IMG/VR virus record: IMGVR_UViG_3300047550_002684
Span: 1-23,642 of that record
Length of the DNA stretch: 23,642 bases
Origin: a virus
Strand: one strand, 5' to 3'
In this document: piece after piece, positions 261-20,293 of the stretch
Numbering within the stretch: position 1 is the stretch's first letter
How the letters are laid out: every line of letters starts with the position of its first letter
The notes under the pieces: model-generated
Seen by the model: only the letters and a program-made list of their open reading frames with translations
Database searches by the model: none
What the model was told of the DNA's origin: nothing
Program-made: the position numbers and the translations under genes

Positions 261-295
261 ACCTCTTAATTGGGAGTCTTAAAACAGGTTTTCTA
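261..295 (-). promoter_or_regulatory. Two-part start-linked element, copy 1
   Basis: On the coding strand TAGAA (the TAG is the stop of the nozzle gene) is followed by CCAATTAAGA and, 3 bases later, the ATG of the next gene. Nineteen bases separate TAG from CCAATTAAG. A short palindrome, AAAACAGGTTTT at 281-292 on the plus strand, lies in the spacer. Promoter or start-associated operator; the role is inferred from repetition and fixed spacing. Confidence 0.7.
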
Positions 296-2248
296 TACTC
301 TGGTTGATGGTGACAATGACCCTATACCCAAAGGTTGAGCCATCATCTTAACTGCAATAAGTTCCCAGTTATCCGATGCACCGGTTGATATGACCTCTAA
401 TTGGACGACACGGACTGTTTTATATACCTGGCTCCATCTTACGAAATCACCGGAGGATACATTGACAGCGTCTTGGGACTCCCCATATGTAGCATCGCCC
501 CATTGATCTTGTCCGTGGCCTGCCTCACCTGCAACAACGCCTGTTATTGTGTATGACTTAAGTGATGCCATTTGTCCTGATTTTTCCTCACCTAGAATGG
601 TAACCTGCACGGATCCCCTAATGTTTCTGAAAAGAACAAAGAACTTGTCGGTCATCTTCATATTAGACCAGTCATCGAACGGCTCACGTCTTGTTAAGAG
701 CTTCTTAGAAATAGCTGTCCCCTCGTCGGAGTTTAGGTCTTCACTGAAATACTTGATGTTACCATCATCTGCCCCAGCTAACCACTTCTCGGCGTTTGTC
801 GTGTCAAAGTATTTAAACCATTTCGTAATCCCATAAGGAGTTATCCACCTGCCTAAAAAGGCTCTGCGTTCATAGTCATATACGATCGTTTCTTTGCGTG
901 TCGGGAACGATAAAATATATTTATGATCGATATATGTAGCCGTTGCCTCACTATAGTCTGTGTCGGTTAAGTTATTCATGTAGCTTCTTATTCTTGTGGA
1001 GATTTCTTTACTTCTAATTTCATTAAGGTAGTTAGCCTCTGAACCAACAGAATATAATCCCTCTAAGGATAAGAAGAATACATCGTTTTCCACTCTAACC
1101 ACTGAATCCGCCGATTTTGTACCCACTGGCAATAGTTCCTGATATTGTGGATCTAAAATCACATAGTTGCCAATAGTGACAGTCTTAAGCACCATTGCGA
1201 ATGTCTTGCGTTCTTTAAATACCAGTATGGTTGATGGTACGTTACCACCTTTAGTATTAGAGCCTACAAACGATGTACAAGTAACCCGATCTCCATCGTT
1301 AGGTGCGACCCTTATATAACCGCCACCATAAGCCCAGTTAAACCTAGACTCATATGGGTATCTAGCAGATATTTGTACGAGTGATGGATCGGTCGGGAAA
1401 TCAGAAACGACGAGTCTGTCGTCAAGACTTAATACATGTCCTGCCTTTGGTCCACCAGTTGAGTCTGCCACAGGGGCTAGAATCGTATCCGATGGCGTTG
1501 ATCCCACATCAAAGAACGTCGTCGTATTCGAGTCTACCTGTGATAGGTACCGCTCATCTCCGGCACTTCCTCTGTATATCGAATACGCCCTGATCATTCC
1601 ACTAACCGCACTTGGAGCTGTCCATGCTACCCTGACCGATGTTCTAGTTAAATCCTGAGGTAAATTGGCAAGTATCACTGATGTAGAACCTAGTGTTTCC
1701 CCCACATCTGTAATTGCTGTAATCCTCCAGCCATATGTATTTGTACCTGAAACACCCGATAAGTTCGTTGCTGTAACCGCTGTAGGTGCTGATATTGTAG
1801 CGTAACTTAGGAGTGTAGCACCAGAGTATCTAACCATTTCACGTGCCTTAGAGACAAGATAAACGTTGCCACCCAATTGCGTACCGCGTACGTCATAACC
1901 CGATACCCACGATGCCCCTGTAATTCTTGTATAAGATGCTCCAGATTTCTTAACTAGATATCCCTCATCTGTACTCGATAAAAGCTCGTTTATAAATGTT
2001 TCCGGCACTTTATAGTCACCTAGGAACCTTATTCTACCTGTCCCCGAATTGGCGTATAAATCACTACCCCATCTGCCGGTCACAGTCCCACGACCTTTAA
2101 TCATTATGTTATCGGCGATTGTTAGTTCATTTGGCTTGATTTCTGTAGCGTTAAAAAAATCGTTCCAGCCACCATCCCAGCCCTCCCAGTTAACCTCGAG
2201 TTTTTTCTGTGGTGTATATGATGGTGTTCTCCTATCTAAAATAGGCAT
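293..2248 (-). CDS. Tail nozzle / tail tubular protein B-like (T7 gp12 / P22 gp10-like) with an FN3-like insert
   Basis: This 651-residue protein has the character of podovirus tail-nozzle proteins: an N-terminal segment naming the gene product's contact region (LEVNWEGWDGGWNDFF, then TIADNIMIKGRGTVTGRWG), repeated beta-propeller-like strands (FLSLEGLYSVG, KYILSFPTRKETIVYDYERRAF, WLAGADDGNIKYFSED) and a beta-rich C-terminus. Residues about 152-258 look like an inserted fibronectin-III/Ig-like domain (SAPTAVTATNLSG, then VRVAWTAPS, AYSIYRGS, TTTFFDVGS). The start follows a strong GGGAGGAG ribosome site and lies one base after the connector stop, so the pair is co-translated. It probably forms the distal tail tube or plug through which DNA leaves. 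The family call is by motif memory. Confidence 0.75.
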   Translation of the reverse strand: MPILDRRTPSYTPQKKLEVNWEGWDGGWNDFFNATEIKPNELTIADNIMIKGRGTVTGRWGSDLYANSGTGRIRFLGDYKVPETFINELLSSTDEGYLVKKSGASYTRITGASWVSGYDVRGTQLGGNVYLVSKAREMVRYSGATLLSYATISAPTAVTATNLSGVSGTNTYGWRITAITDVGETLGSTSVILANLPQDLTRTSVRVAWTAPSAVSGMIRAYSIYRGSAGDERYLSQVDSNTTTFFDVGSTPSDTILAPVADSTGGPKAGHVLSLDDRLVVSDFPTDPSLVQISARYPYESRFNWAYGGGYIRVAPNDGDRVTCTSFVGSNTKGGNVPSTILVFKERKTFAMVLKTVTIGNYVILDPQYQELLPVGTKSADSVVRVENDVFFLSLEGLYSVGSEANYLNEIRSKEISTRIRSYMNNLTDTDYSEATATYIDHKYILSFPTRKETIVYDYERRAFLGRWITPYGITKWFKYFDTTNAEKWLAGADDGNIKYFSEDLNSDEGTAISKKLLTRREPFDDWSNMKMTDKFFVLFRNIRGSVQVTILGEEKSGQMASLKSYTITGVVAGEAGHGQDQWGDATYGESQDAVNVSSGDFVRWSQVYKTVRVVQLEVISTGASDNWELIAVKMMAQPLGIGSLSPSTRV

Positions 2249-2249
2249 G

Positions 2250-2912
2250 TTATCTCCTCCCTATTCGATAACCTCTTCTGCTGTAATAATCCCTTACACG
2301 GTTTTCTCCACCGCCACTATTGAGTACATTTTGGTGTTCTAACATAGATGCTAGTATTTTTTCTGCGTCTGCCTTAGCTGTTGGGAATCTTGTGTCTCCC
2401 CTGCTTTCCAACACAAAGGCTATTCCACGTTGCACAAGATAATTAGGATTACTTAATGCAGGGATTTGTCCTAGTGATGCTAGACTTGCTGGTAGTTTCT
2501 GGTATTTGATCTGTATAGTTGCACCACTTGTTAACCCTTTTGGTATACGTGCAACATAACCCGACTCTCTGTTACCCTCAATATAGAAAACCTCATCCCA
2601 TGAGTTATACATCTCAAAGTCATTAGGTCTTATCTGTGCGTATTGTCTCGGTCTAGTCAACTCGTCTGAGTCCTCATAAAGAGGTGATTGTGATTTTATA
2701 AAATCCGTTGGTAATGCTAAAGACACTGTCGATGCTTGTGTCGCTGTTGCTGTATAGGTCGTTTTGAGTTCGTCCCAATCATAGGCTAAAGCCCAGTCCT
2801 CATAAGCGTAGTTAATGAATTTCTTCCTGATATCCAAATCGGTATCCGTTGGTGTTGTTGCGTCCTGATCTACATAGCTCCCTATGCGTTGTAGGATTTC
2901 TTCTAGTGTCAT
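2250..2912 (-). CDS. Head-tail adaptor / connector-like protein (tail tubular protein A-like)
   Basis: This 220-residue protein begins with a helical segment (MTLEEILQRIGSYVD, then RKKFINYAYEDWALAYDWDELKTTYTA), followed by a beta section containing SLALPTDFIKSQSPLY, then IQIKYQKLPASL and a basic tail rich in Arg and Tyr. The helix plus 'LPTDF' strand plus 'YxKLP' strand is the pattern seen in connector/adaptor proteins that join portal to tail nozzle in podoviruses. It sits directly upstream of the nozzle gene, as expected for a neck module. The start is fixed by the CCAATTAAGAGGT element immediately before ATG, in sequence identical to that before gene 1-260 over 13 bases. Specific family membership is an inference. 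Confidence 0.65.
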   Translation of the reverse strand: MTLEEILQRIGSYVDQDATTPTDTDLDIRKKFINYAYEDWALAYDWDELKTTYTATATQASTVSLALPTDFIKSQSPLYEDSDELTRPRQYAQIRPNDFEMYNSWDEVFYIEGNRESGYVARIPKGLTSGATIQIKYQKLPASLASLGQIPALSNPNYLVQRGIAFVLESRGDTRFPTAKADAEKILASMLEHQNVLNSGGGENRVRDYYSRRGYRIGRR

Positions 2913-2947
2913 ACCTCTTAATTGGTATGAGTCGAAATTATTTTCTA
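2913..2947 (-). promoter_or_regulatory. Two-part start-linked element, copy 2
   Basis: Coding-strand TAGAA (overlapping the stop of the 105-residue gene), 19 bases from TAG to CCAATTAAGA, then GGT and ATG. The whole 32-base gap between stop and start matches copy 1 in length. It heads the connector-nozzle pair. Confidence 0.7.
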
Positions 2948-3262
2948 GGAATAACTTAAAGAGGCTCGGTTGTCATAAACATTGTCGTAAAACGGGTCGC
3001 CATCGGCATATAACACCGTGTTATTTGCTATGGTTATTCGCTTGATCTTCCACGTAGCACTTGATGTGGCTGTTCCAGGTATTGCGTAACCTATGTATGT
3101 ATAAGTCGCACCAGCGTCTACCCTAACCGTTTGGTCTGCTCTTAGAGTACGTTTAAAACCTTGTCCTGACTCACTATTACCTACGCGTCCGAACTCATAA
3201 TATTCTGTGGGTAGATAGTCTCTTGATTTTATAGCATTTTTAAGTTCATTTGCTTCTGCCAT
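2945..3262 (-). CDS. Small beta-rich phage structural protein, unknown role
   Basis: This is a 105-residue protein. The visible pattern is beta-rich: VRVDAGATYTYIGYAIPGTATSSATWKIKRIT in pieces, then LYADGDPFYDNVYDNRASLSY at the C-terminus. The sequence order YIGYA-PGT, WKIKRI, ADGDPxxDxxxDxRxSLxY resembles a small hypothetical family found near neck and tail genes of tailed phages. It overlaps the preceding 132-residue gene by 17 bases and has no clear Shine-Dalgarno of its own, so it is probably translationally coupled. A head-tail junction or decoration role is only a guess from position. Confidence 0.7.
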   Translation of the reverse strand: MAEANELKNAIKSRDYLPTEYYEFGRVGNSESGQGFKRTLRADQTVRVDAGATYTYIGYAIPGTATSSATWKIKRITIANNTVLYADGDPFYDNVYDNRASLSYS

Positions 3263-3644
3263 AATCGTATTTCTTTAACTCGCGTTCTATACTGGCTTTC
3301 TCACTATTAAGGAAAGCGTAACGATACATACGTTTGATTTGTGATTCTCCCATTGCGTCCCTGCCGACCTTATTTGATAGGAGCCTTACTTCCCATAAAA
3401 CATCGTTAAACTCTTTTGCTCCTGTCGATTGCTTGACGTAATCTACAATTGCCGTGATCTCTTTTAAGTATCTTGATGGATCAATCGCACTGTCTCCAAC
3501 CTCTTTAATGATGTTTTTGAGTTGTGTTTCTTCAAGGGTAAAAGCGTCACCACGAGGCTCTGTGCTTTCAACCTCTGGGACTTTCTCTTTGACTTCTACT
3601 TCGTTGTTCTTGATTTGTTTTTTTACGTCCTCTTCGCCTAGCAT
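3246..3644 (-). CDS. Hypothetical acidic/helical protein in the neck module
   Basis: This 132-residue protein is not recognised. The first about 35 residues are highly charged and likely disordered (EEDVKKQIKNNEVEVKEK), followed by predicted helices (LEETQLKNIIKEVGDS, YLKEITAIVDYVKQSTGAKEFNDVLWEVRLLSNKVG) and a basic C-terminus ending YDYGRSK. There is no membrane segment or catalytic motif. It starts 6 bases after the CCAATTAAG core (AATTAAGATAT-ATG) and lacks an ordinary ribosome site. It heads a two-gene unit with the 105-residue protein. A head-tail assembly factor or chaperone would fit the position, but this is inference only. Confidence 0.65.
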   Translation of the reverse strand: MLGEEDVKKQIKNNEVEVKEKVPEVESTEPRGDAFTLEETQLKNIIKEVGDSAIDPSRYLKEITAIVDYVKQSTGAKEFNDVLWEVRLLSNKVGRDAMGESQIKRMYRYAFLNSEKASIERELKKYDYGRSK

Positions 3645-3680
3645 ATATCTTAATTGGTAATAATCACTTCAAGTATTCTA
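3645..3680 (-). promoter_or_regulatory. Two-part start-linked element, copy 3 (TAGAA inside the upstream gene)
   Basis: CCAATTAAGA lies at 3648-3657 (reverse complement) with ATG 3 bases beyond. TAGAA lies at 3676-3680, exactly 20 bases from TAG to CCAATTAAG, as in copies 4-6, but here it is inside the coding sequence of the upstream glycosyltransferase (CTA GAA, Leu-Glu) rather than at its stop. This shows the TAGAA part is not just a by-product of stop codons. Confidence 0.7.
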
Positions 3681-4745: not shown

Positions 4746-5368
4746 GATATGCTTGGTGATAACCACGCACTCTCCATATGCGTTGCAAGCGAGGGTGTAG
4801 GTTGAACTAAAGTATACTTTTTCGTTAGCTCCTTCCACATGGGCTCATCAGCCCAGCCGTATTTCTTCATAAGTTCGATATTCATCTTTACCAGCTTTCC
4901 ATGAGTCGCAAATGTTAATGTAGTTGAGGGAATACTGAACCAGCCATCCTTAGCTGTCTCTTGTCCCCTGTTAATCATTTCTGGATGTTCATAAGGGGTT
5001 ACAAAGTCAAACTCGTCTAAAACACCTACCATCTGTCCTGCTGTTGGTAGAAAATAATAGTCATCTTCGACGAAAAATACTTTGTCATCCACCTCTGTTG
5101 CTAAATCAAGTTGTCTATAATAACTGTCTCTATTGCCTGAATCCCAATCAAGAGTTCGTAATATTTCGGCTGTATGTTTAAGTGAACACGCCTTAACTAA
5201 ATCTACAAGTTCAAATGTAGGTTTATCTATAATAAAATGCACTTCGATATCGGGGAATGCTTTCACAAACGAGCCTAGACATAGCTTAATTAGATCAAAC
5301 TTAGAACACTCAATAGGTCTTGGCTTATTTATACTCGGTATTGAGGTCATCCGATAAAATGCTTTCAT
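4727..5368 (-). CDS. Glycosyltransferase-like protein, GT-A type
   Basis: This 213-residue protein has an N-terminal pattern MKAFYRMTSIPSIN, a strand VHFIIDKPT, and an acidic cluster FVEDDYYFLP at about 99-108 that fits the DxD metal site at the end of a GT-A strand. Downstream DFVTPYEHPEMI, then STTLTFATHGKLVKMN are consistent with an acceptor-binding half. The ATG overlaps the preceding stop as ATGA, implying translational coupling inside the island. The call rests on the acidic motif position and the company of other glycosyltransferases; the exact family is not recognised. Confidence 0.65.
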   Translation of the reverse strand: MKAFYRMTSIPSINKPRPIECSKFDLIKLCLGSFVKAFPDIEVHFIIDKPTFELVDLVKACSLKHTAEILRTLDWDSGNRDSYYRQLDLATEVDDKVFFVEDDYYFLPTAGQMVGVLDEFDFVTPYEHPEMINRGQETAKDGWFSIPSTTLTFATHGKLVKMNIELMKKYGWADEPMWKELTKKYTLVQPTPSLATHMESAWLSPSISWQKYF

Positions 5369-5898
5369 AGATTACGCCCCCATTTCTCATTAAACTTACG
5401 CCTGTTAGTTTCCCTCCATACATTCATGTTATCTATCTTGTGTAGTGTGTTCCCGCCCTGTGGTGGATGTGAGAAGTCAACCGAATCTATAGGCTGTCTC
5501 CTAAATCCCTTAGACTCAACATTCGCCCAAAAATCGTTGTCATCATAGTAGGCCTGCTCGTAGGTCTCGTCGTAGCCACCTGTTACCTCGAATATCTCCC
5601 TTGGGACACAGAAAACGTGTGCGTGAAATGGTATCTGATTACCATTAATCTTAGGACACGTAATAGCGGACTTAACACATAAATCACTAAGATCACCCGA
5701 TTGATAGACTGCGTCGTCATTAAGAATAAGGATGTAATCGCCTTTAGCCATTCGCATGCCTTGGTTAATCTTCTCCCCTAACCACGATTTTTTTGAGGAA
5801 ATAATAATCGTTTCATCAACCTTACCCTGCAAAGACTTAAAGCAGTCCACAAGCAAAGGCTCGTCTGGATTGTAATTAGTAATTACAGCACTAAGCAT
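5365..5898 (-). CDS. Family 2 glycosyltransferase (short GT-A)
   Basis: This 177-residue enzyme starts MLSAVITNYNPDEPLLVDCFKS in pieces, the donor-binding strand of GT2 proteins, has KINQGMRMAKGDYILILNDDA with the NDD metal-binding motif at 60-62, and a C-terminal acceptor segment FEVTGGYDETYEQAYYDDNDFWANV with the expected ED/DD-type acidic cluster. It is shorter than typical GT2 enzymes (about 230-300), so it is a minimal catalytic domain. It overlaps the cytidylyltransferase-like gene by 8 bases and ends in a TGA overlapping the next ATG. It likely adds a sugar to a phage protein or cell-surface glycan; the substrate is unknown. Confidence 0.85.
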   Translation of the reverse strand: MLSAVITNYNPDEPLLVDCFKSLQGKVDETIIISSKKSWLGEKINQGMRMAKGDYILILNDDAVYQSGDLSDLCVKSAITCPKINGNQIPFHAHVFCVPREIFEVTGGYDETYEQAYYDDNDFWANVESKGFRRQPIDSVDFSHPPQGGNTLHKIDNMNVWRETNRRKFNEKWGRNL

Positions 5899-6319
5899 TG
5901 CTCATTCTCCTTTTAATCTCCGTTGTAGAGATTGATTCAGTATAAGGCACATAAATGAGATCTATCTTCATATCATCGAGCCACGCTTGAGTTACCCCTA
6001 TTTGTGTATAATAGTCTTTCTTCGCCCAATCAGAGCCAACAACCAGAAAATCAGGTCTTATATCCATTAGCAACGGCTTAAGTGTCTCGTTGCCGTAGTT
6101 CTCTATGACGGTATCTACCCACTTGCAGGCTATAACGTTTTGACACCTCTCATAATAACTAAGTACCGGCGGTCTACCTTTATATTTTTGAATAAACGCA
6201 TCCGTGTTGATGCCTACAACTACTTTCCCATTTCCGACAATCTTTTTGCACCTCTCAAAGAGTCGATAATGCCCGTAATGTGTAAGATCATATGTCCCTA
6301 CAGTTAATATTGTTTTCAC
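5891..6319 (-). CDS. Cytidylyltransferase (glycerol-3-phosphate cytidylyltransferase / TagD-like)
   Basis: This 142-residue protein, close to the 129-132 residues usual for TagD-type enzymes, carries both signature motifs: TVGTYDLTHYGHYRLFERC with HxGH at 14-17 (nucleotide binding) and ESISTTEIKRR at 128-138. VVGINTDAFIQKYKGRPP and FLVVGSDW also match the fold. Such enzymes make CDP-glycerol or related CDP-alcohols from CTP and the phosphate. The start codon is GTG 6317-6319, overlapping the previous TGA as GTGA. Its presence among glycosyltransferases implies that an activated polyol-phosphate or CDP-linked precursor is made locally for a phage-controlled decoration. The exact alcohol cannot be told from sequence. 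Confidence 0.88.
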   Translation of the reverse strand: MKTILTVGTYDLTHYGHYRLFERCKKIVGNGKVVVGINTDAFIQKYKGRPPVLSYYERCQNVIACKWVDTVIENYGNETLKPLLMDIRPDFLVVGSDWAKKDYYTQIGVTQAWLDDMKIDLIYVPYTESISTTEIKRRMSNA

Positions 6320-6882
6320 TTAAAATGCTCCTCCCATTTAGAGGCGATTAATGGCCACTCAAACTGTTTAGCAAACTCCTTTCCTTTCTCCGATTCCTCT
6401 TTCCAGCGTTTCTCGTCTTTCATTAAAGCAATTAGTTCTTTCTTGTATTTGTCGAAGTCCTCATCAAAGTAAATGTCACCATCAATCTTGACTCCTGAAC
6501 CTACAGTCTCTTTAAGTCCTGCGAGGTTAATAACAACTGGCACAACACCGTCTTTTTGACAATCCAAAGCGGTTATGCAATTTGTCTCCGTAAAATCGGT
6601 AGGATAAGCCCATATACCACAACTTTGGCGTAGTTTTGCGAGTTCAGTCTTATTAAGCCTGCCGTGTTCCTTGATTCCGTCTTGAGACATAAGTTTAACC
6701 ATCTTAGCTTTCCAACTCATGCGTTCTGGATTATTCTTGAATGTTCCGTCAAAAAGCGTCCAGCCGTAACAAACATCTAGTGTTGCATCTGGTATTTCTT
6801 TCTTGATATCCGCCCACATCTTTAAAAGGTGAATTAAACCCCTGTCATAGCTCGAGCCATAGAATAGTTTGTGTTGTTTCAT
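6316..6882 (-). CDS. C-terminal half of a split GT-B (GT4-type) glycosyltransferase
   Basis: This 188-residue protein starts exactly where the second Rossmann half of a GT4 enzyme begins: KLFYGSSYDRGLIHLLKMW, then ATLDVCYGW, KEHGRLNKTELAKL, and the donor-binding segment WAYPTDFTETNCITALD at 91-107, with E99 and an acidic residue 8 positions later in place of the usual EX7E second Glu. GVVPVV follows, as in GT4 enzymes. The first Rossmann half is at the C-terminus of the preceding 603-residue gene, whose last residues are the hinge strand VISNGIL. The two genes overlap by ATGA. The two polypeptides probably associate to make one active site; the split is discussed under findings. Confidence 0.8.
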   Translation of the reverse strand: MKQHKLFYGSSYDRGLIHLLKMWADIKKEIPDATLDVCYGWTLFDGTFKNNPERMSWKAKMVKLMSQDGIKEHGRLNKTELAKLRQSCGIWAYPTDFTETNCITALDCQKDGVVPVVINLAGLKETVGSGVKIDGDIYFDEDFDKYKKELIALMKDEKRWKEESEKGKEFAKQFEWPLIASKWEEHFK

Positions 6883-10885: not shown

Positions 10886-10928
10886 ATATGTCCTTTCATG
10901 CTCTTAAATAAGGGATAGAGCATCATCC
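10884..10928 (-). CDS. Possible 14-residue leader peptide before the scaffold gene
   Basis: A short frame begins at ATG-ATG (10926-10928), reads MMLYPLFKSMKGHI and ends in a TGA overlapping the scaffold ATG (ATGA). AAGG lies 5 bases before its start. It sits after element copy 4 and spans a 7-bp hairpin, so translation of it could influence scaffold expression. It is short enough to occur by chance. Confidence 0.3.
10898..10923 (-). repeat. Inverted repeat in the scaffold leader
   Basis: ATGCTCT and AGAGCAT, 7 bp and perfect, are separated by 12 bases, a few bases upstream of the scaffold ribosome site. The hairpin could form in the leader RNA. The loop-side TTTAAGAGC-ATG also resembles a degenerate copy of the AATTAAGAGN-ATG element. 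Confidence 0.5.
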
Positions 10929-10938
10929 CGACCTTATC

Positions 10939-10971
10939 TCTTAATTGGGTGTGTGGTTGTTGGGTTTTCTA
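10939..10971 (-). promoter_or_regulatory. Two-part start-linked element, copy 4 (distant from start)
   Basis: TAGAA (overlapping the stop of the 1417-residue gene), 20 bases from TAG to CCAATTAAGA. Unlike the other copies it lies 53 bases before the scaffold ATG (10939 to 10885), so the element does not depend on being a ribosome site for the adjacent gene. Confidence 0.65.
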
Positions 10972-13900
10972 CATTCCAGCTCTGATACGTGGATCGAGCC
11001 TTAGTGCTAATGGTTTAGATTGCACTTTGAATGGTTGAATATTGATCTTAGGTTGCTGTACCTTTGGTGCGATGTTTCCTAGTTGTACTGGTTTAAGTTG
11101 TTGAAAATTAGGTGCTTTAATAGCCTTGATCTTAAGTTTTTGTGCTTTCTTCTTGCTCCCGGAAGCTTTTTTGGTCTTAACTCTTGCCTGTTGTGACTTT
11201 AATATACTAATCAGTTTATTAGCCTCTTCTGCTGTCAATTGTTCATCCTCATAAAGTTTGTATATCTGTGTGATACGCGTGCCTATCTTGCTGTAATAGC
11301 TAGACCTAGCCTTTGTATCTAGCTCTTTAAGTCCTGTTGGCGTAGGTTTCGTGATCGGTTGTGATAGATCGATGACGGTTTCTGAGCCTGTCTCGGGATT
11401 CTTTAGTATAAACACACCCTTGCCAGCTACTTTTGCCGTTTTTGTCGGGTTTTTGGTAGTTTCAGCAGTTTTTTTACTAGCTAAAGACGCAACATAGTCT
11501 TTGGTTTTCGCCGATATTGGTTCACCCACACCATTATCTGCTATAAACTGCCTAATCTGTCTTTGTGCTTCTTCTTTGTTTATCTTTCCACTGTCTAACT
11601 GTCGCCAAAGCTGTTTTTCTAATTTGTCTTTTACTGCTTTTATCTTTGGATCAGTCCCTAATAGGTTTTCGGGTGAGTTATCTCCTCCTAGTGATAAAGG
11701 TATTATGTGGTCATATTCCAAACCATTATCTCCGGGGTTTATATTCGTTTTTCTCTCGAAGATTAAAGCGTCATTGGTTATCTTACGCATAACTTCTTCG
11801 GTGAAAATAGCCTTAATGGTATTTTGTGGGTCGACTGTGATACCTTTGGCGGCTAGAGATATCTTGTCCATTATCGTCTTAGGTGCTTCTGGTGACTGTT
11901 CCCTGCTATTACTAAATCTAGGTGCTGTTGCTTCTTCTTCTGCTAGCAGTTTATCTATCTGTTTTGTGGTAAGTCCTGCCTCATATAAGTCGTTTAACTT
12001 CTTGCCTCCTCTAACTTTCACAAACCTACTCTGTATGTCAGATGTCACACTTCTACCCCCTACTTGTTCTTGCGGGATAACACCCTGATTAGCTAGCACC
12101 CTATCCGATAGGTTTAAAAGCTGTCGGCCCGTACCTGCGCCTGATGAGCTTACAAAATTCTCTACCTTTAAGGGTGATGTATTCAAAACCCCACCAATTA
12201 TGCGAGCTGTACCACTTGTTTTATCTCTTACTTGTTCACTGGCTGGCAACTTAGTCATGTACGAGGGTACAATATCTTCTCCTGTGTAGAAGTTCTTATT
12301 TAAAATAGGCTCAAGACCTAGTTTTAATCCTTGTGGTGTAAACTGGTTCGCAAGTTTTCTCACCGAGTCGCCATCTGTGGGCAACTCAAAAGAAGTGCCT
12401 GCTGCTGAAAGATCGCTCAATACCCGCATAGCTTCTTGTGGGTTCGCACCAGCCCCCTCTATCTGTCTCCTGATGATACTACCCAAATTAGCAAGTCCAG
12501 GCGTTATAGGGATCTTAATCGCATCATAATTACCGTTCTCGTCTTTTACAGGCTTCTCAGGCATTATGATAATGTTTCCCTCTTTTTCGTAGTCTTGTAT
12601 ATCCTCATAGGCCGCCTTTCTTTCATAGTTTGAAACGTTCCAAAGTGTCGCTGCCGCTATAGGCGTACCCACGAATGCTGTAAATCTTAGAGACGTACCC
12701 TTAGGATCTGATATAAACGACTGTCTAAGTGACCTTGCCCCCTGTATACCTGCATTAAAGAAAGGAATTACAGCGTTCAATACTTTCCCGTACTCCCCTT
12801 TCCTAGCGAAGTTGGCCGTATTTGTTCTCGACGCTGCACCAGCCATTAATTCGGCATCGGCTAGTGTCCTGCCCTCTTTTAGCAGTGCGTTTTTAGTACC
12901 GGCATACTGTTGTATTCTTGTTAGATTCTCGGTGGTTCCCACTATGTCCTCTAAAGCTCTAAATAATTGGCCAGGGTTAGTTGCTAGATATTTGACCTTG
13001 CTTGCCACGTTTTTATTGCTCCTAATACTAGCTATAGTGCTTGGCGCTGACCCTCTAGCTATATCAAAACTGGTGAAAGAAGAACCAGACCTTATCCAAT
13101 CTGCATAAAGATTGTCGTGCTTAACCGCCGAGAATAAGGCCTTAACAAAGTTAATGGGGTTAATTATCGATGTCGACAAGGGTTTTTTAGAAATTACCGA
13201 GGCTGTTAGCTGGTCTTTGACTAAGTTCCCTATAATAAAAGGAACATTCACGCCTGTTGCTCCTAACTGTAAAACTCTAGCTGGCACAGCTATTATCTTT
13301 AAAGCTTTAGATAACTGATCCGCATTCAAGTCTTTGGCTGCAGCAGCTATATCCGGTGATACCTCATAGGTCTTTTTCACTCCATTATCTAAAAATGACA
13401 CTGTGTGTTTAGCCCCGATAGTACCTTTAACCTCTTTGCCTGGGATAATACCGTTTTTAATGTAACCACCAAGCATTCTAGCCCCCTTGTTACGTTCTCC
13501 CTCTCTAAATGCTACGCCTGTACTCTCAAGCAAGCTTTCAAGTGGGTTAACTATCTCCCTTTCTGAACCTTTCAGTCTTTTAACTACATTTTGTGAGCCT
13601 ATGGAAGCTGGCCCACCTCTACCACTAGGTGATTTAAGTGCTGATTGCTCTACTTCTGTGAATATTCTCTTTAAGGGTACGTAGTTCGGATATTCTTTAG
13701 CTAAGGCATCAGACAAGTCCTGTGATATTAAGCCGCTTTCTACTAAATAGTTTCTTAACTTGGCGTTATATGCGTAAATCTGTTGTGCAACTGGCTCGTA
13801 TTTACTACCTAGTGACTCTATCAATTGCTTGTCACTTGTTAAGTCTCTACCCGTCCTTATACCCTTTGAGGAGACATCTGTGGCCTGTTTAGCTATTAAA

Positions 13901-15222
13901 TATTGATTTAATCCATCTAGGTTGTCTGTGTTCTTAATTACATCGGCCAAACCGTTGTCTTTTATGAATTGTGTACCCAAGCTATCCGCTCTTAACACTT
14001 TGTCTATCTGATAACGTATGTCCTGTTGTGGAAGTATCTTAAACTTACCCGCCTTTTCGGCTCTGTTTAAAGCTGTTTCTATCGGTGTAGTAAAGTCCTC
14101 AAACTTAGTCTTAATAGACTGTAGAGTATTATCTGCTTTAGTTTTAAAGGATATATTATCTGGAGTTATGCTCTGTTTAGCAGCTTGTTCTCTGATGTAT
14201 TGGTCGGTATTAAACTCAACTTTGCCAGCTGTGTCTCCAACGATGCCCGCTTTCATGCCTAATTTCCTAGCCATTTGCCTATTCTTGACTATCTCTCGAT
14301 ACGCGTTATCTATAGCCTTTTGGTATTGTTTGATTGCTGTCTTACTACCACCCGATTCACTTAATGATTTGATTTTTTGTTCTAGTGTCTTTATGTGTTC
14401 TTGGATGTTCTTATTTTTTAGTGCGTATACGTTACCATCTATGCCCTCAACACGTGGTCTATTTGCTCCGCCTGTAACTGCACCTATCCCGACATCTAAA
14501 AGTGCGTCTGTTGGTGTGTAGTTCTTAATCCCTAGGCTACGGTTCATTATCATGCCCTCTGGGATAGACAATAGACCTGTGACACCTCTGTTAATCACAC
14601 CTCTCGTTGCAGGATTTACTATGTTTTGCCCAAGTCTGCCTGCTGTGTTTGTTATTAGTGGGTTAGTAATCCCGCTTACCATTCTTATTGGTGCATACGC
14701 TGATATTCCCTTGGTAGCACCCTCAAATGGGTCACCACCAAAGAGTTTGCTAACTCCTGCTCCGATTGTCCCTTGTGCAGCTATACCCGGAGTTGCTCTT
14801 AGCATATTTCCTGCGATGCTACCGCCTCCTAGGACACCTGCCGTTGTGAAAGCTGGTAAAGATGCACCTGTTAACCTTGCTACTTTGCCACCTACTGTTT
14901 GTGGTGCGTTAGCAACTTTATCTCTAAAGATTAAGCCCATACCGGGCATTGAACGTAAACCCTCTAAGCCTTGCGCTACATAACCCCTTGCGGAGTTTTC
15001 CGGAGCTTGTTTAGCGAGTTGTGCGAATTGTCTATTGGATTGTTGGAACTCTCTGCTTGTTGGGACAAATGTTTCTTTGAATGCTGTGCCTGCACTATTG
15101 CTGAGACGTTGATTAAACTTTGATACACCTGTAGCCCCCTGTGAGAGACCACCTAACATATTTAATGCGTCGTCTTTAAGTTTGGAAAATCTTGCCTTTA
15201 ATGCGTCTTGTACACTTGCCAT
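10969..15222 (-). CDS. Giant virion-internal/ejected protein: LPD38-like with an HNH nuclease domain
   Basis: This is a 1417-residue protein. Its N-terminal quarter is Gly/Ala-rich with hydrophobic stretches (AGVLGGGSIAGNML, TIGAGVSKLFGG). Residues about 380-520 have helices typical of large polyvalent proteins (KVLRADSLGTQFI, YVPLKRIF). Residues about 650-910 resemble the LPD38 domain (IIGNLVKDQLTASV; NAVIPFFNAGIQGARSL; AAATLWN). Around residues 1140-1220 is an HNH nuclease domain: LEYDHIIPLSLGGDNSPENL with D1171 H1172, then KAVKDKLEKQLWRQLDSGKI, matching bacterial HNH proteins of the DHxIPLxLGG...KDxLExxL type. The C-terminus is Lys/Pro rich. It lies among head genes, as expected of ejection proteins. 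The start has AAGGAG plus element copy 5. Confidence 0.8.
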   Translation of the reverse strand: MASVQDALKARFSKLKDDALNMLGGLSQGATGVSKFNQRLSNSAGTAFKETFVPTSREFQQSNRQFAQLAKQAPENSARGYVAQGLEGLRSMPGMGLIFRDKVANAPQTVGGKVARLTGASLPAFTTAGVLGGGSIAGNMLRATPGIAAQGTIGAGVSKLFGGDPFEGATKGISAYAPIRMVSGITNPLITNTAGRLGQNIVNPATRGVINRGVTGLLSIPEGMIMNRSLGIKNYTPTDALLDVGIGAVTGGANRPRVEGIDGNVYALKNKNIQEHIKTLEQKIKSLSESGGSKTAIKQYQKAIDNAYREIVKNRQMARKLGMKAGIVGDTAGKVEFNTDQYIREQAAKQSITPDNISFKTKADNTLQSIKTKFEDFTTPIETALNRAEKAGKFKILPQQDIRYQIDKVLRADSLGTQFIKDNGLADVIKNTDNLDGLNQYLIAKQATDVSSKGIRTGRDLTSDKQLIESLGSKYEPVAQQIYAYNAKLRNYLVESGLISQDLSDALAKEYPNYVPLKRIFTEVEQSALKSPSGRGGPASIGSQNVVKRLKGSEREIVNPLESLLESTGVAFREGERNKGARMLGGYIKNGIIPGKEVKGTIGAKHTVSFLDNGVKKTYEVSPDIAAAAKDLNADQLSKALKIIAVPARVLQLGATGVNVPFIIGNLVKDQLTASVISKKPLSTSIINPINFVKALFSAVKHDNLYADWIRSGSSFTSFDIARGSAPSTIASIRSNKNVASKVKYLATNPGQLFRALEDIVGTTENLTRIQQYAGTKNALLKEGRTLADAELMAGAASRTNTANFARKGEYGKVLNAVIPFFNAGIQGARSLRQSFISDPKGTSLRFTAFVGTPIAAATLWNVSNYERKAAYEDIQDYEKEGNIIIMPEKPVKDENGNYDAIKIPITPGLANLGSIIRRQIEGAGANPQEAMRVLSDLSAAGTSFELPTDGDSVRKLANQFTPQGLKLGLEPILNKNFYTGEDIVPSYMTKLPASEQVRDKTSGTARIIGGVLNTSPLKVENFVSSSGAGTGRQLLNLSDRVLANQGVIPQEQVGGRSVTSDIQSRFVKVRGGKKLNDLYEAGLTTKQIDKLLAEEEATAPRFSNSREQSPEAPKTIMDKISLAAKGITVDPQNTIKAIFTEEVMRKITNDALIFERKTNINPGDNGLEYDHIIPLSLGGDNSPENLLGTDPKIKAVKDKLEKQLWRQLDSGKINKEEAQRQIRQFIADNGVGEPISAKTKDYVASLASKKTAETTKNPTKTAKVAGKGVFILKNPETGSETVIDLSQPITKPTPTGLKELDTKARSSYYSKIGTRITQIYKLYEDEQLTAEEANKLISILKSQQARVKTKKASGSKKKAQKLKIKAIKAPNFQQLKPVQLGNIAPKVQQPKINIQPFKVQSKPLALRLDPRIRAGM

Positions 15223-15260
15223 ATACTCCTTAATTGGTTAGTTATGGGTGTGTAATTCTA
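15223..15260 (-). promoter_or_regulatory. Two-part start-linked element, copy 5
   Basis: TAGAA (overlapping the coiled-coil gene stop), 20 bases from TAG to CCAATTAAG, then GAGTAT-ATG. Here the core runs into a true AAGGAG Shine-Dalgarno. It heads the LPD38-HNH gene. Confidence 0.7.
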
Positions 15261-16442
15261 TGGTCCGTAGCCGTAGATGTCGTCGTAGGATTTCTTTTTA
15301 CCATACGCACCCGTTGCTGTTGCTAATGGATCAGAACCATATCCCATTGCGTTGTTATATGCGATCTCTTGTCCTGATGCGTCTAAGTTAGAGCTAATGT
15401 TGTCAACTCCTGCTTGTGCTGTACCTACTGTGCCACCAAAGTCATTAACGAGTTTGTTGTATAGTGCTTGTAGTTCACTGTCTTTCAATGCACTATCCGA
15501 CGCGACACCTGATTGTAGTTCTCTTGTGTATTTATTAATATCAGCGACTTCTTGTCGGTATTCTCTTAATAGATTGATCTTGTCAATCTTTTTGCTCTGT
15601 TTAGTCTGGTATTCCATTTGGTCTATCTGGGCTAACTTGTCTCTGAAGTTAAGTTCTGCCTGTGTGATTGCTTGTTGTTTTTGACTCTCAATCTCGTTTA
15701 GCTTAACGTCACGCTCTCTTTGTACGTTAACGATCTGCTTTTCTATATCTCCTATTTGAGCTGAGACCTGTGTTCTTATATCTCCAAATTGTCGTGCTTG
15801 ATCTCGTGCTAATAACTCGCTCGATGCTTGCCCTGCACTAGATAATGCACCACTACCGAACACCTGTTGATTACGTGAACCTAATTCACCATATAAGCGT
15901 CTTGCTGAATCCAAAGCGTTCTCACCTTGTGCTTGTGCTTGAGTTGTTAGGCCTTGTAAATTAGTAACAGCTTCGTCTGCTGATGCTTGCACTCGTGGTT
16001 TCAAACTTTCGTAAGGATTTGACGCTAGTTTTAAAATATCACCCTTGGATTTATTTAAGTTATCTCTCTGCTTACCTATATAGTTCATTATGTCGTCATA
16101 GATGCTATTAACCTCTGATTGTTGTCTCTCCATCTCTTTTTGTGCCTCTGATTTACCGGAACCCCCACCTGACGAACCTGATGATTTGTCCTTTGTTTTG
16201 GGTGTCGGAGCAGGAGCCTGTGTTTTATCACCGAGAATATTGCCCTTAGGTGCTGGTGGACCATACACGACCGGTTTTGATTTTGGAATTGTGATATTCT
16301 TTGCCTTTTCCACAACCGCCATAGATTTATTAATCATGTCAGTTGTAGCCTTTGCTTCTTCAACGGATTTCTTATTACCGCCGAACTTTTCAGTTATTTG
16401 AAATTCTGGTAAACCCCATGAGCCTGTCCCTGCATATGGCAT
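15258..16442 (-). CDS. Coiled-coil virion-type protein, unknown
   Basis: From ATG 16440-16442 this is 394 residues. The order is: an N-terminal segment MPYAGTGSWGLPEF, a Pro/Gly/Ser-rich low-complexity linker (KSSGSSGGGSGKSEAQKEME), then a long Gln/Glu/Lys coiled coil (about 110-320: SEVNSIYDDIMNYIGKQRD; QKQQAITQAELNFRDKL), ending KKKSYDDIYGYGP. Such proteins next to the LPD38 protein are common as internal virion or ejection proteins; no enzyme motif is present. The frame could extend to GTG 16487, but that lies inside the divergent CAP gene and neither start has a ribosome site; an AT-rich stretch, GTATATATTATAAC, abuts the ATG. The function is unknown. Confidence 0.7.
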   Translation of the reverse strand: MPYAGTGSWGLPEFQITEKFGGNKKSVEEAKATTDMINKSMAVVEKAKNITIPKSKPVVYGPPAPKGNILGDKTQAPAPTPKTKDKSSGSSGGGSGKSEAQKEMERQQSEVNSIYDDIMNYIGKQRDNLNKSKGDILKLASNPYESLKPRVQASADEAVTNLQGLTTQAQAQGENALDSARRLYGELGSRNQQVFGSGALSSAGQASSELLARDQARQFGDIRTQVSAQIGDIEKQIVNVQRERDVKLNEIESQKQQAITQAELNFRDKLAQIDQMEYQTKQSKKIDKINLLREYRQEVADINKYTRELQSGVASDSALKDSELQALYNKLVNDFGGTVGTAQAGVDNISSNLDASGQEIAYNNAMGYGSDPLATATGAYGKKKSYDDIYGYGP

Positions 16443-16456
16443 GTTATAATATATAC
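16442..16456 (+). promoter_or_regulatory. Extended -10 promoter for the CAP gene
   Basis: TGTTATAAT (16442-16450) is a perfect extended -10 (TGnTATAAT), and the GTG start at 16457 falls 7 bases after the last T, where transcription would begin. No -35 match is apparent, which extended -10 promoters can tolerate. The transcript is predicted leaderless. Confidence 0.65.
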
Positions 16457-16990
16457 GTGAAAAACCTTGTAAAATACTTACTAGCACTTACCGTACTAGG
16501 GTCTTTTCTCGCTTATCTCTTTATTGGTAAATCCCAAGCACAGTTTTCTATTGCCCCTACTACCGACACTACGAAGCCATATATGTTTAAGTCAGAAGAA
16601 GCCGTTGCTCCCGTGTATACACTACAAACACCGGTCGAATTAGATGAATATGTCATCTATGAACTAGTCAACAAGGAGCGATCTAATCATAAGCTTAAAG
16701 AACTAAGGCTTGATCCCGCACTTTGTGAATACACAGAATTTAGACTAAGCCAAATTAAGGTCAATTTCTCTCATAATGGTTTTAAACAAACATCACTCCA
16801 ATATGTACAAGAAAATAATCTAAAACAGGTTGGGGAAAATCTCGTTAAGGACTACGCATCCGAGAGTGCAACAGTTCATGACTGGATGAACTCACCAACA
16901 CATAGGGAAAACATCCTCGATGCGACCTATAAAGACACCTGTGTCCGCTGCGATGGTCAGTACTGTGTTCAGATCTTTGCTACGAAGTAA
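16457..16990 (+). CDS. Secreted CAP-superfamily (YkwD/SCP-like) protein
   Basis: This 177-residue protein starts at GTG 16457. Residues 1-29 are a signal peptide: Lys-containing N-region, hydrophobic YLLALTVLGSFLAYLFIG, cleavage probably after SQA. A short linker precedes a CAP domain (65-177): YELVNKERSNHKLKELRLDP, FSHNGF with H106, VGENL with E127, WMNSPTHRENIL with H149, the residues that line the CAP pocket. Four Cys (90, 162, 165, 170) could form disulfides. It is the only plus-strand gene, and its own promoter plus leaderless start suggest host-driven expression, as in moron genes. CAP proteins are exported, with roles in surface or cell-wall biology that vary and are often unknown. Confidence 0.88.
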   Translation: MKNLVKYLLALTVLGSFLAYLFIGKSQAQFSIAPTTDTTKPYMFKSEEAVAPVYTLQTPVELDEYVIYELVNKERSNHKLKELRLDPALCEYTEFRLSQIKVNFSHNGFKQTSLQYVQENNLKQVGENLVKDYASESATVHDWMNSPTHRENILDATYKDTCVRCDGQYCVQIFATK

Positions 16991-17129: not shown

Positions 17130-17156
17130 GGTGAGCTACTGTTCTTTAAGCTCACC
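17130..17156. repeat. Inverted repeat GGTGAGCT / AGCTCACC
   Basis: Perfect 8-bp arms (17130-17137, 17149-17156) with an 11-base loop. AGAGAG on the left and TCTCTCT on the right can extend the stem past a small bulge. No T-run follows on either strand, so it is not a plain intrinsic terminator. Confidence 0.65.
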
Positions 17157-17165
17157 GTGTCTCTC

Positions 17166-17216
17166 TGAGTCTGAGGTTTCCGCTTTTGATTGCTCAAAAG
17201 AGTCACTTCTCTCAGG
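17166..17216. repeat. Nested hairpin region
   Basis: An inner perfect 7-bp stem CTTTTGA / TCAAAAG with TTGC loop (17184-17201) is enclosed by CTGAG (17166-17170, repeated 17172-17176) and CTCAG (17212-17216). The arrangement suggests a folded RNA or a protein-binding site. There is no U-tract. Confidence 0.5.
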
Positions 17217-17253
17217 TATATAGTCGGGTCATGACAATTCTTTTACACCTATC

Positions 17254-17264
17254 ACGGTGACCGT
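17254..17264. promoter_or_regulatory. Operator-like palindrome ACGGTgACCGT
   Basis: Perfect 5-bp arms around one central base, in the gene-poor interval upstream of the CAP side and downstream of the zinc-type gene. It has the size of a small dimeric repressor half-site pair. No matching regulator is encoded in the window. Confidence 0.4.
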
Positions 17265-17300
17265 ATACCATAAAGTCAAGTTCACGATAGATACAATTTT

Positions 17301-17486
17301 TTACTCAGTTTTCTGGAACTTCTTGTTTGCTTCTTTGATAGGAAACTTACCCTCCGGGTCAAAGAACCCTAGACCACATTTAGTACACTCAACGTTTAAA
17401 CCCATGCGTACAAAGTTGTGTTGACAGCCCTTGATCTCACCTAGATTGAACACTTTATCGTTGATTATGACCTGTTTGTCCTCCAT
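17301..17486 (-). CDS. Small zinc-ribbon-like protein
   Basis: This 61-residue protein carries C21-x-H23 and C34-x2-C37 in KGCQHNFVRM and VECTKCGLGFFDPEGKFPI, a plausible mononuclear zinc site of the short ribbon kind. Such tiny proteins are frequent near phage terminase and portal genes with unknown roles. ATG overlaps the sigma-factor stop as TAATG, with AAGGAGAG 6 bases upstream, so the two are translationally coupled. An accessory factor of transcription is conceivable given this coupling, but there is no direct evidence. Confidence 0.75.
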   Translation of the reverse strand: MEDKQVIINDKVFNLGEIKGCQHNFVRMGLNVECTKCGLGFFDPEGKFPIKEANKKFQKTE

Positions 17487-18112
17487 TATGCTCTCCTTAT
17501 GTTAACTCGGTGACTTAAAATGTCTGCTAACATGATCTGTTCACGCTTACGGATCGTTTCTATGCCTAAACCTAGGATATGTGCGATCTCTGATAGTGTT
17601 CTTGGGATCCCACCTGTCACTCCTAGCCTTAGTTTGATGATTGCTCTATCTTTTGGGTCGTATTTGGAGATAAGTGTGTCTAAATAGTCGCGTCTTACTT
17701 GCATTTCTTCTTGTAAGATCTCATTTCCGAGTATTTCATCTTCCATTTCTAAAGTATCGGGTATCATATCCGCGTAACCTTTAGCATCTTCGTTGAAAAT
17801 CGACTCTGTGAGGTCTACATTACGGTAATCACAAGCACTTTGGAGTGCATCTAGCATGTAAAAGTAAACATATGTAGTAATAGACATGGATTGTTTGACC
17901 TTTTCGGGGTTAAAGTTCCTAGTTGCTTTCATTAGTCCTATGTGTGCTTCTTGTACGAGGTCGTCAAACTCGATTAACCGGCTGTATTTTTTAGCATATT
18001 TATCAGCGTAGTACTTAAATAGTCCGTCAAAATGGTCGTGTAACTTTGCTTGAGAGGCTCTGTTCCCCTCTTTGGTCTCTTTGATAAGCTGGATTACTTG
18101 ATCCATCTCCAT
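17486..18112 (-). CDS. Phage sigma-70 family factor
   Basis: This 208-residue protein has a sigma region 2 at about 45-98 (RLIEFDDLVQEAHIGLMKATRNFNPEK, then MSITTYVYFYMLDALQSACDYRN) and region 4 at about 145-200 (DRAIIKLRLGVTGG, RTLSEIAHILGLGIETIRKREQ, the recognition helix-turn-helix). In between is an acidic linker (DTLEMEDEILGN). It lacks region 1.1 and region 3, as small alternative and phage sigmas do. It probably redirects host RNA polymerase to phage promoters; the repeated TAGAA/CCAATTAAG elements in this window are candidates. It overlaps the preceding gene by 19 bases, with GAGG before the ATG. Region 2 has fewer aromatic melting residues than housekeeping sigmas. Confidence 0.88.
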   Translation of the reverse strand: MEMDQVIQLIKETKEGNRASQAKLHDHFDGLFKYYADKYAKKYSRLIEFDDLVQEAHIGLMKATRNFNPEKVKQSMSITTYVYFYMLDALQSACDYRNVDLTESIFNEDAKGYADMIPDTLEMEDEILGNEILQEEMQVRRDYLDTLISKYDPKDRAIIKLRLGVTGGIPRTLSEIAHILGLGIETIRKREQIMLADILSHRVNIRRA

Positions 18113-18423
18113 TTTTTGTCCTCCTGTTTAGATTTGATGTTTTGGATGATTTTATCCTGTTGGTTTAAGATCTCGATTACGTTTTTGACTACTTCAGTAC
18201 CACCTCTCGCAAAGGTATAAGCTAGAGTCAGTGACTCGTAGTCCTTATACTCCTTGGGGTTGGGGTAGCATCGCTTCTCCTCCGCCAAGAGGATTTGCAG
18301 GAAGTCCGACCATCCCCTGTGCTGGATTAACTCCAGTAACCTCTGGGCTTTGTCCAGTTGCTCCTGCTGTGATTGGGTTAACTTCGACTCGTTCAAAGAA
18401 CTTGTCTGCGTCTTGTAGTCCAT
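18094..18423 (-). CDS. Small helical protein overlapping the portal C-terminus
   Basis: This 109-residue protein is not recognised by name, but its order LDKAQRLLELIQHRGWSDFLQILLAEEKR, then YESLTLAYTFARGGTEVVKNVIEILNQQDKI resembles short proteins that follow portal genes in many tailed phages. It overlaps the portal gene by 179 bases in another frame, so about 60 of its residues share DNA with the portal tail. AGAAG precedes the ATG. It also overlaps the sigma gene by 19 bases. If the start were later, only the unshared C-terminal half would remain. A role in portal assembly or stability is a guess from position. Confidence 0.6.
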   Translation of the reverse strand: MDYKTQTSSLNESKLTQSQQEQLDKAQRLLELIQHRGWSDFLQILLAEEKRCYPNPKEYKDYESLTLAYTFARGGTEVVKNVIEILNQQDKIIQNIKSKQEDKKWRWIK

Positions 18424-20257
18424 TATCTTCTAATACTTGTACTAATAAGTCTTTGATCTTAACTTTCTCCTGTTCGACTTGTAACATTCCTTGTATTTCA
18501 GGAGTCATTAACATCTCAAGTGCTTTACCTCTACCAGCTTTGTTTGCTTCGTTAGCGTTCAAAGCCATTGATTGTACACTTGGTATATAGTCATACACCC
18601 CATCTACGTCCTCAGGCAATAAGTAAAGTTCACCACTCTCACCACGTTCATCGATCTTTAACTTGGGTTGGATGTCGTAATTTGCTGGGTCTTGTTCTTC
18701 AGGGTTCATTATTACAGAATGTTTATAACTCTTACCCATATCAAGCATCTGGTTCATTGCAAAGTCACTCATCTCACCATCTGTTTCGTTGATCATGCCC
18801 CTTACTTCATCTAGTACCATAGGGTCTAAGATCTCTTGGTCTAGTTCCATAGCTTGTAGATCTTTGATCGCTGATTTACCCACAATCCTTAGTATGTGCA
18901 TCTTTTTTGTTGGGTCATCGAACAAGAACTGCTGGTTGTTAAGTAACCAGAGTAACATCTGATCTTTCAATGCTTGTTCCAAGTAGATTTGGTTTTGTTG
19001 GTCTCTTGATAACTTCTGTCTCTCTGATGCTCTGACCTCTGTTGCGGTCTTATCTGTAGCAAACGGGTCTCCAACTCCAACACCTTGGCTCATCTCGCCC
19101 ATAGCTGTGTTATATGCGTTTAAAAGAGCTGAATATATTGTTTGGAAGTTAGACATGACATCGCTTGCGGACACCATCTCTTGTACGTTGTTAGTAGAGT
19201 CACCTACTATCCATTGTGCGTTTGGCCCCCATTCGATTGTGTCCATTCTCACTGTTTGGTTGTTAGCAATCTTGACTGGTGGTCGTTGTCTTAGGTTAAT
19301 CTCATCGATCGTACCACATAGTAAAGCCGTGATGGCTCTCCATACTGGTAACACTGGCTCGACTTCTGACTCACCATAGATATCGTCGCCGACACCGTAA
19401 TATCTTAATTGGATAACCGGTATTCTTTTATGTTTATAAGGGTTAGGGACGTCTCTTATGATGATTCCTAACCTTGGACAAAACGTAATCCATCTATCTT
19501 TTCTGTATTCTGTAACAACCTCGAGTGTTGGGAATGCTGTATCTGATCCGACCCTATCCTCTAAGCCTTTCATATCTTTAACTACAGAGTCATACTTAGC
19601 GTCCCTACGGTCTCCGTTACCACCCTCTTGGAGTAGGTCTTTGACTGCACTTAGGTTGATATACATAGGCTCCGGACTTGATTCGTTCTCTTCTTCTAAC
19701 TCACGGTATGTTTTCCACTCTCTGACCTGTACCCAGTTAGCGTTTTTAACATGGTTTGCTGTGTAATCAACAACAACATCTCTATTGTCTAGGACTTTCA
19801 TTTCGTTGCCATCAAATATACGCTTACCGTCTGATTCCTCGGTTCTCCAGTATACTAAAGCAAAGGATGCACCAAACAAACGTGTCTGTACGTCCATTAA
19901 CGCCCATTTCTCTAGCATCGAGCCACCTAACTCTGCGTTGTCCCATTGAAACTCTAGTAATGCGTTGTTGAGTTTAGCTTTGATCATGTCACCACCCTCT
20001 CTTGGTACGAGTCGGCCTCTTAGTTTACCGTTGAATAGTCTAGCGTTCTTCTCTAGGATTGTTGTTCTGATAAGTGGAATAGACACCATTGATAGATAAG
20101 GCCATGTAGCCTCGTCTAACTTGCCGTAATATGCTTTGATTGTGTCGTTCCAACCGTTCTCTCTTAGTCTGCGTTGGTCGTTGTCGATCGTTCCCTTTTG
20201 GTAATGATCTAAGAGAATAGGTAATATAGACTCATTTTTAGTGGATTTCTTGGCCAT
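18245..20257 (-). CDS. Portal protein
   Basis: This 670-residue protein is the size and sequence style of podovirus-type portals: an N-terminal wing (LLDHYQKGTIDNDQRRLRENGW, IPLIRTTILEKNARLFNGKLRG), a mid section (DVQTRLFGASFALVYWRTEES; IPVIQLRYYGVGDDIYGES), a stem-associated segment (TALLCGTIDEINLRQRPPVK; SAGAL-like GVGVGDPFATDKTATEVRASERQKLSRDQ) and a C-terminal disordered GQSPEVTGVNPAQG tail ending QPQGV. It forms the dodecameric ring at the packaging vertex and nucleates head assembly. It is the first gene of its unit, headed by element copy 6, with the start set by CCAATTAAGAGTT-ATG. Its last 179 bases overlap the next gene. It also contains one CCAATTAAG copy in coding sequence at 19403-19412. 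Confidence 0.85.
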   Translation of the reverse strand: MAKKSTKNESILPILLDHYQKGTIDNDQRRLRENGWNDTIKAYYGKLDEATWPYLSMVSIPLIRTTILEKNARLFNGKLRGRLVPREGGDMIKAKLNNALLEFQWDNAELGGSMLEKWALMDVQTRLFGASFALVYWRTEESDGKRIFDGNEMKVLDNRDVVVDYTANHVKNANWVQVREWKTYRELEEENESSPEPMYINLSAVKDLLQEGGNGDRRDAKYDSVVKDMKGLEDRVGSDTAFPTLEVVTEYRKDRWITFCPRLGIIIRDVPNPYKHKRIPVIQLRYYGVGDDIYGESEVEPVLPVWRAITALLCGTIDEINLRQRPPVKIANNQTVRMDTIEWGPNAQWIVGDSTNNVQEMVSASDVMSNFQTIYSALLNAYNTAMGEMSQGVGVGDPFATDKTATEVRASERQKLSRDQQNQIYLEQALKDQMLLWLLNNQQFLFDDPTKKMHILRIVGKSAIKDLQAMELDQEILDPMVLDEVRGMINETDGEMSDFAMNQMLDMGKSYKHSVIMNPEEQDPANYDIQPKLKIDERGESGELYLLPEDVDGVYDYIPSVQSMALNANEANKAGRGKALEMLMTPEIQGMLQVEQEKVKIKDLLVQVLEDNGLQDADKFFERVEVNPITAGATGQSPEVTGVNPAQGMVGLPANPLGGGEAMLPQPQGV

Positions 20258-20293
20258 AACTCTTAATTGGGTATAGAGTGGCGTTCTTTTCTA
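20258..20293 (-). promoter_or_regulatory. Two-part start-linked element, copy 6
   Basis: TAGAA (overlapping the upstream stop), 20 bases from TAG to CCAATTAAGA (20261-20270), then GTT and ATG of the portal. It heads the portal-to-zinc-protein unit, including the sigma factor. Confidence 0.7.

Follow-up and report, generated by a model that had tools for sequence, protein, structure and literature searches.

Why does the same two-part sequence stand, at an almost fixed spacing, before the virion genes of an uncultured phage? The question is raised by a 23.6-kb virus fragment (IMG/VR record IMGVR_UViG_3300047550_002684; hereafter the window, by which the whole stretch of 23,642 nucleotides is meant), which encodes a terminase large subunit (TerL), a portal, an SU10-type major capsid protein, a large LPD38 protein and a sigma-70 family factor. 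The sequence in question is TAGAA-N17/18-CCAATTAAG, and we consider it, with a probability of about 0.85, to be a sigma70-type leaderless late promoter of a tailed phage. This reading is supported by comparison between related phages, namely by positional conservation, a -35/-10 architecture, the absence of Shine-Dalgarno (SD) sequences and covariation in the stem of a leader RNA. We infer where transcription starts, that translation is leaderless, that the promoters are of the late class, and that the phage's own sigma factor reads them.

A scan of the window found exactly six copies of the element, all on the minus strand, with spacers of 17, 17, 18, 18, 18 and 18 bases. There were none on the plus strand, and the chance expectation was zero (100 dinucleotide shuffles). 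A first-pass annotation had reported six copies on one strand and none in reverse orientation, and both statements hold. CCAATTAAG occurs seven times in exact form, six times with TAGAA; the seventh, inside the portal gene, is where the annotation had placed a lone copy. An ATG follows CCAATTAAG after 4-6 bases in five copies (3-5 bases when counted after the tenth base, as had been noted), and these five ATGs begin genes 3..260, 2250..2912, 3246..3644, 10969..15222 and 18245..20257. In five of the six copies TAG doubles as the stop codon of the gene before it (open reading frames, ORFs, ending at 293, 2945, 10969, 15258 and 20291).

265..295, minus strand: copy 1; -35 TAGAA at 291-295, its TAG the stop of gene 293-2248; -10 region CCAATTAAG at 265-273; ATG of gene 3-260 at 258-260
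2917..2947, minus strand: copy 2; TAG is the stop of gene 2945-3262; predicted to drive gene 2250-2912
3649..3680, minus strand: copy 3; the stop TGA of the upstream ORF lies inside the element at 3664-3666; predicted to drive gene 3246-3644
10940..10971, minus strand: copy 4; TAG is the stop of gene 10969-15222; -35 TAGAAAACCC 48 bases before the ATGCTC of a candidate leader RNA
15229..15260, minus strand: copy 5; TAG is the stop of gene 15258-16487; predicted to drive the LPD38 gene 10969-15222
20262..20293, minus strand: copy 6; TAG is the stop of gene 20291-20536; predicted to drive the portal gene 18245-20257
19404..19412, minus strand: lone CCAATTAAG without TAGAA, inside the portal gene; read as a chance coding match

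Counterparts of the element in related phages

Among named phages, a megablast of the window and a tblastn of the portal gave no match, the tail protein gave a single weak match, and TerL reached at best 30-32% identity (Pelagibacter and Klebsiella phages); a close cultured relative is therefore absent among them. Searches with the portal and the tail protein gathered about 100 related uncultured phage contigs, some of them counted twice. One of these relatives, G002, has a portal 44% and a TerL 58% identical to those of the window phage. A GTDB search with the portal gave one match only, a 40.6-kb 'loop' contig (L231) in a Bacteroidetes metagenome-assembled genome, which is a member of the same phage family and probably misbinned. 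A search for clues to the host found no tRNAs in the scanned pieces of five relatives.

The annotation had made its reading depend on conservation of both parts of the element in related phages. The exact sequence is present in no relative, but its position and architecture are kept. The positional counterpart is TTG[A/C][A/T]AACC, with the first T 36-37 bases before the ATG, followed by TANNNT at -12 to -7. Over 1935 non-identical starts in the relatives, TTGNNAA reaches counts of 37 at -37 and 55 at -36, whereas other positions have about 6 and internal ATGs 4; TTGATAA at -37 was counted 24 times against a background of 0.4. Where TTG stands at -36, three further columns are strong, T-12 (0.80), A-11 (0.88) and T-7 (0.76), that is, a TANNNT -10 box, and the spacer between the two boxes is 18 bases. 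Of the two readings offered by the annotation, a promoter class or a start-associated operator, the promoter is supported, since orthologous starts have two boxes resembling -35 and -10, spaced as in the window; an operator is not needed.

The orthologous starts of G002, for example, have TTG-N15/16-TTTATTATTTATA, with TTTATTA at exactly -17. The window version is -35 TAGAAAACC and -10 CAATTA; the latter lies at -12 to -7 from the ATG in four copies and 2 bases further upstream in copy 15229-15260. To judge from these alignments, each phage has its own consensus of a shared promoter, of which the position and architecture are conserved, and promoter consensus drift between related phages is thereby shown. 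Ten larger genomes were examined, and nine of them have the pattern only or mainly on the virion-gene strand; the exception, G052, is mixed (4/28 vs 3/7).

Three other candidates were dropped. A scan of viral contigs with the exact element gave 32 matches, which we consider to be chance (one each in 32 contigs, with no second full match anywhere). A repeat in G004, TAATAAAGA, turned out to be coding sequence, and the logo of the relatives is not matched by TAnnTTTG, the -7 box of Bacteroidetes.

Gene starts without Shine-Dalgarno sequences

In the relatives, SD words precede 9% of the promoter genes and 34% of the others, and the anti-SD pairing energies also differ (p=5e-18). When the count was repeated after overlapping ORFs had been filtered out, it gave 11% for promoter genes as compared to 39% for other genes on the same strand and 52% on the opposite strand. 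Some spurious ORFs are present in the comparison sets. The orthologues of gene 2250-2912 allow a closer look. TTG is present at -40..-34 in 48 of 55; 45 of these 48 lack an SD sequence, and six of the seven without TTG have one (Fisher 1.9e-5). Promoter and SD sequence are nearly mutually exclusive across these 55 genes. Applied to five other genes, the test gave no significant result: portal orthologues almost never have an SD sequence, with or without TTG in place, and in the four further genes TTG is seldom in place. In the window, some copies have a weak AAGAGG or AAGGAG very close to the ATG.

Upstream stop codons crowd the -35 box as well. They lie within -6 to +3 of it in 72 of 142 aligned sites, and 20 use the TGA of TTGA.

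These patterns suggest how the element could work. TAGAA(AACC) would be the -35 element, and CCAATTAAG would contain the -10 element. The promoter would fill the entire intergenic gap, with the preceding gene's stop codon inside the -35 box. A -10 box at -12 to -7 predicts a transcription start on the A of the ATG, and transcription would begin there or within a couple of bases. Five virion operons would then have leaderless mRNAs, translated without a ribosome-binding leader. The same promoter in copy 4 would start the scaffold/capsid mRNA, with a structured leader of about 50 nt and an SD-like sequence. Leaderless virion-gene expression is thus predicted, together with exact transcription starts, for a whole phage family known only from metagenomes.

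In bacterial leaderless genes, TANNNT is found about 12 bp ahead of the start codon (Zheng et al. 2011, PMC3160421), and such promoters are also present in Deinococcus-Thermus (PMC12340547). The phage family resembles them in that its consensus has TANNNT at -12 from the ATG, with no SD sequence before the start codon and no space for a leader. It differs in that the promoters precede phage virion operons, that they have a conserved -35, TTGNNAACC, at -36/-37, and that the upstream stop codon is in or adjoins the -35 box. The window differs also in its -10, CAATTA, which keeps only A-11 of the TANNNT box. Leaderless middle/late mRNAs have been reported for the Thermus phage phiYS40 (Sevostyanova et al. 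2007, as cited in PMC3594737). Both cases concern phage late genes without leaders, although the phiYS40 transcripts are reported and ours are predicted from sequence. The two phages are unrelated, and the present case differs also in that the element is defined family-wide and one operon keeps a structured leader. This kind of promoter is thus already known, from leaderless promoters and the leaderless late mRNAs of phiYS40; what is new is its occurrence in this phage family and its stop-promoter-start packing.

The genes on the opposite strand often have AAAGGATAA-like SD sequences. Those of G052 (minus strand; L258/L259) and G035 (plus strand; L260/L261) have in common, close to their starts, GTTAAAGAAAGGATAAA-like sequences that include a strong SD, and they are probably early genes.

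A candidate leader RNA before the capsid operon

Copy 4 (10940-10971) has no long gene starting directly behind it; what follows is a candidate structured leader.

10899..10929, minus strand: candidate leader RNA upstream of the scaffold/capsid operon; stem GGGATG/TATCCC, loop ATGCTC, downstream GAGCA able to pair with the loop (pseudoknot)
L205:2098-2160, L230:2327-2385 and L149:12605-12660: candidate leader RNA in relatives

Twenty-four aligned relatives share this pseudoknot-like RNA, with a covarying stem, an invariant ATGCTC loop and an invariant GAGCA; the row of the window is one base out of register in the 24-sequence alignment. Thirty-nine cells are changed on both sides, all of them in the stem, as compared to 16 in shuffles (0/500) and 7-19 when the alignment was slid, in sequences that were partly collected by requiring GAGCA and at least 4 stem pairs, which favours the structure. 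These leaders could, however, be seen already among the orthologues before any such filter. The helix between loop and GAGCA does not vary, which is consistent with pairing but is not proof by covariation. Minimum free energy folding of the window leader was no better than that of shuffles (z -0.3); since the program cannot predict pseudoknots, covariation is the evidence for the leader structure.

The leader also provides a second ruler for the promoter. TTG, often as TTGNAAACCT, is present 46-54 bases before ATGCTC in 25 of 26 relatives, and the TAGAAAACCC of the window is at 48. The -35 of the window is therefore aligned with that of the family without recourse to start codons.

A pattern search with the leader RNA alone found 20 contigs, among them contigs with capsid or scaffold genes and the same promoter; one (L156) was already a family locus, and the other 19 were checked afresh. 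The capsid gene is present in 15 of the 19, and L276, which ends just past the leader RNA, has the same promoter. Three contigs (L266, L270 and L273) have neither capsid gene nor promoter and look like chance coding matches. Rfam gave no match in the window; three leaders (the window and two relatives), searched at a lax threshold, gave none either, apart from sub-threshold microRNA/lncRNA noise. The RNA before the capsid genes is most likely a previously undescribed folded RNA, for which this conserved leader without an Rfam match is the candidate. The mRNA leader of T4 gene 32 also contains a pseudoknot; both would be phage leader pseudoknots, which differ in sequence, gene and phage.

Taken at its fullest, the proposal would be that a large uncultured family makes mostly leaderless virion mRNAs from stop-promoter-start units, that the consensus drifts in each phage, here with its own sigma factor, and that the sole leader, that of the capsid operon, is a new pseudoknot RNA controlling capsid expression. 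As a whole, we consider this somewhat less likely than not.

The phage sigma factor and other explanations

The genes on which the remaining arguments turn are as follows.

18245-20257, minus strand: portal gene
10969-15222, minus strand: LPD38 protein gene, 1417 aa
17486-18112, minus strand: sigma-70 family sigma factor (P0006), regions 2 and 4; matches PDB sequences

The phage thus encodes a sigma factor of its own, with sigma70 regions 2 and 4, and the gene begins with a good SD sequence downstream of the portal. Among the family contigs searched (phrog_351; controls positive), homologues are present only in the window, G041 and G045; an earlier protein search of the first 30 relatives found none and had no positive control. 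G041 and G045 have TTG-type elements, each with its own -10. Middle and late promoters of Bacillus phage SPO1 combine a phage sigma factor with a diverged -35/-10 consensus, and leaderless placement is not known to be a feature of them. The window phage likewise has a sigma factor and a diverged pair of boxes, for which that sigma is here only a candidate reader.

That the promoter is read specifically by the sigma factor at 17486-18112, as a phage-sigma late class, is a special case of the promoter reading to which we give a little less than even odds. The window combines a sigma factor with the most diverged -35/-10 among the phages examined, and CAATTA lacks the T-12 and T-7 preferred by ordinary sigma70, which makes a link between the two plausible. 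However, G045 and G041 encode a sigma factor yet have fairly ordinary TTG/TAGTT elements, and a non-standard -10 of its own is present likewise in each of G002, G033 and G052, in which no sigma was found. The sigma gene is downstream of the portal, probably in an element-driven operon, so that another first source would be needed, and with only three phages that encode a sigma a correlation cannot be drawn. Several points count against the promoter reading itself. The family has T-12 and T-7 where CAATTA does not, so that poor binding by host sigma70 is expected and a special reader must be assumed; the promoter is also present in family contigs without a sigma found, and a phage sigma is therefore not needed by the element in general. 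The TTG pattern was first spotted by eye and counted afterwards, the test being the contrast between positions; the 142 aligned sites were chosen for TTG, their -10 columns not; and the relatives are not phylogenetically independent. A strict count places TTG as expected in only 19 of 33 portal orthologues, and the SD-bearing exceptions, six of seven, are a small count.

The element could instead be a translational start signal in the mRNA, either an unusual ribosome-binding site or a repeat like the start-associated sequences (SAS) of cluster K mycobacteriophages, which the annotation had named as an analogue with a different sequence. It does stand just before the ATG, and the AAGAGGT or AAGGAG of some copies resembles a weak SD sequence. 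But its conservation reaches -36 with sigma70-like spacing, no long gene begins right after copy 4, relatives have the same -35 before a structured leader, at a nearly constant distance, and promoter genes have less anti-SD pairing, not more. We consider this explanation very unlikely. The SAS analogy is weak, although the sequences do differ as was said: SAS is a 13-bp GGGATAGGAGCCC with an SD-like AGGAG core, located among non-structural genes and proposed to act in translation (PMC3203893). Like SAS, the element is a single-orientation repeat a few bases before ATGs and specific to a phage group; unlike SAS, it has two parts, reaches as far as -36 and does not contain a good SD. None of the six copies has the 13-bp sequence, and they precede the portal, the LPD38 protein and other virion-cluster genes. 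An operator for a phage regulator, overlapping the start sites, is barely more probable. It would explain repeats upstream of operons and the inverted repeats between the boxes of some relatives (L142), and it could coexist with promoter function; however, the element is not palindromic and has a single orientation, its parts are spaced from each other and from the ATG as in a -35/-10 promoter, and the consensus of the family is just such a pair. Finally, the copies might be chance repeats, or TAG might be kept only as the end of the upstream gene, as five of six TAGs are stop codons. At 3680, however, TAG is out of frame (read ..CTA GAA.. in an upstream ORF that stops later), and TAGAA is kept there although it is not a stop, so that stop-codon use alone is insufficient and TAGAA is conserved for itself. 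The AA after TAG and CCAATTAAG are kept too, with none expected by chance, and this explanation is refuted as sole cause.

A few other observations can be added. In L142 (3711, 4995 and 10001) an inverted repeat, AACCTAG..CTAGGTT, lies between the -35 and -10 boxes and is a possible operator. A CAP-domain (YkwD-like) gene at 16352-16990 is on the plus strand of the window, opposite to the sigma factor and gene 15258-16487, between which it lies. Within the virion cluster, 5365-8690 (minus strand) holds Glycos_transf_1, Glycos_transf_2, CTP_transf_like and TPR protein genes, that is, glycosyltransferases and a cytidylyltransferase among them.

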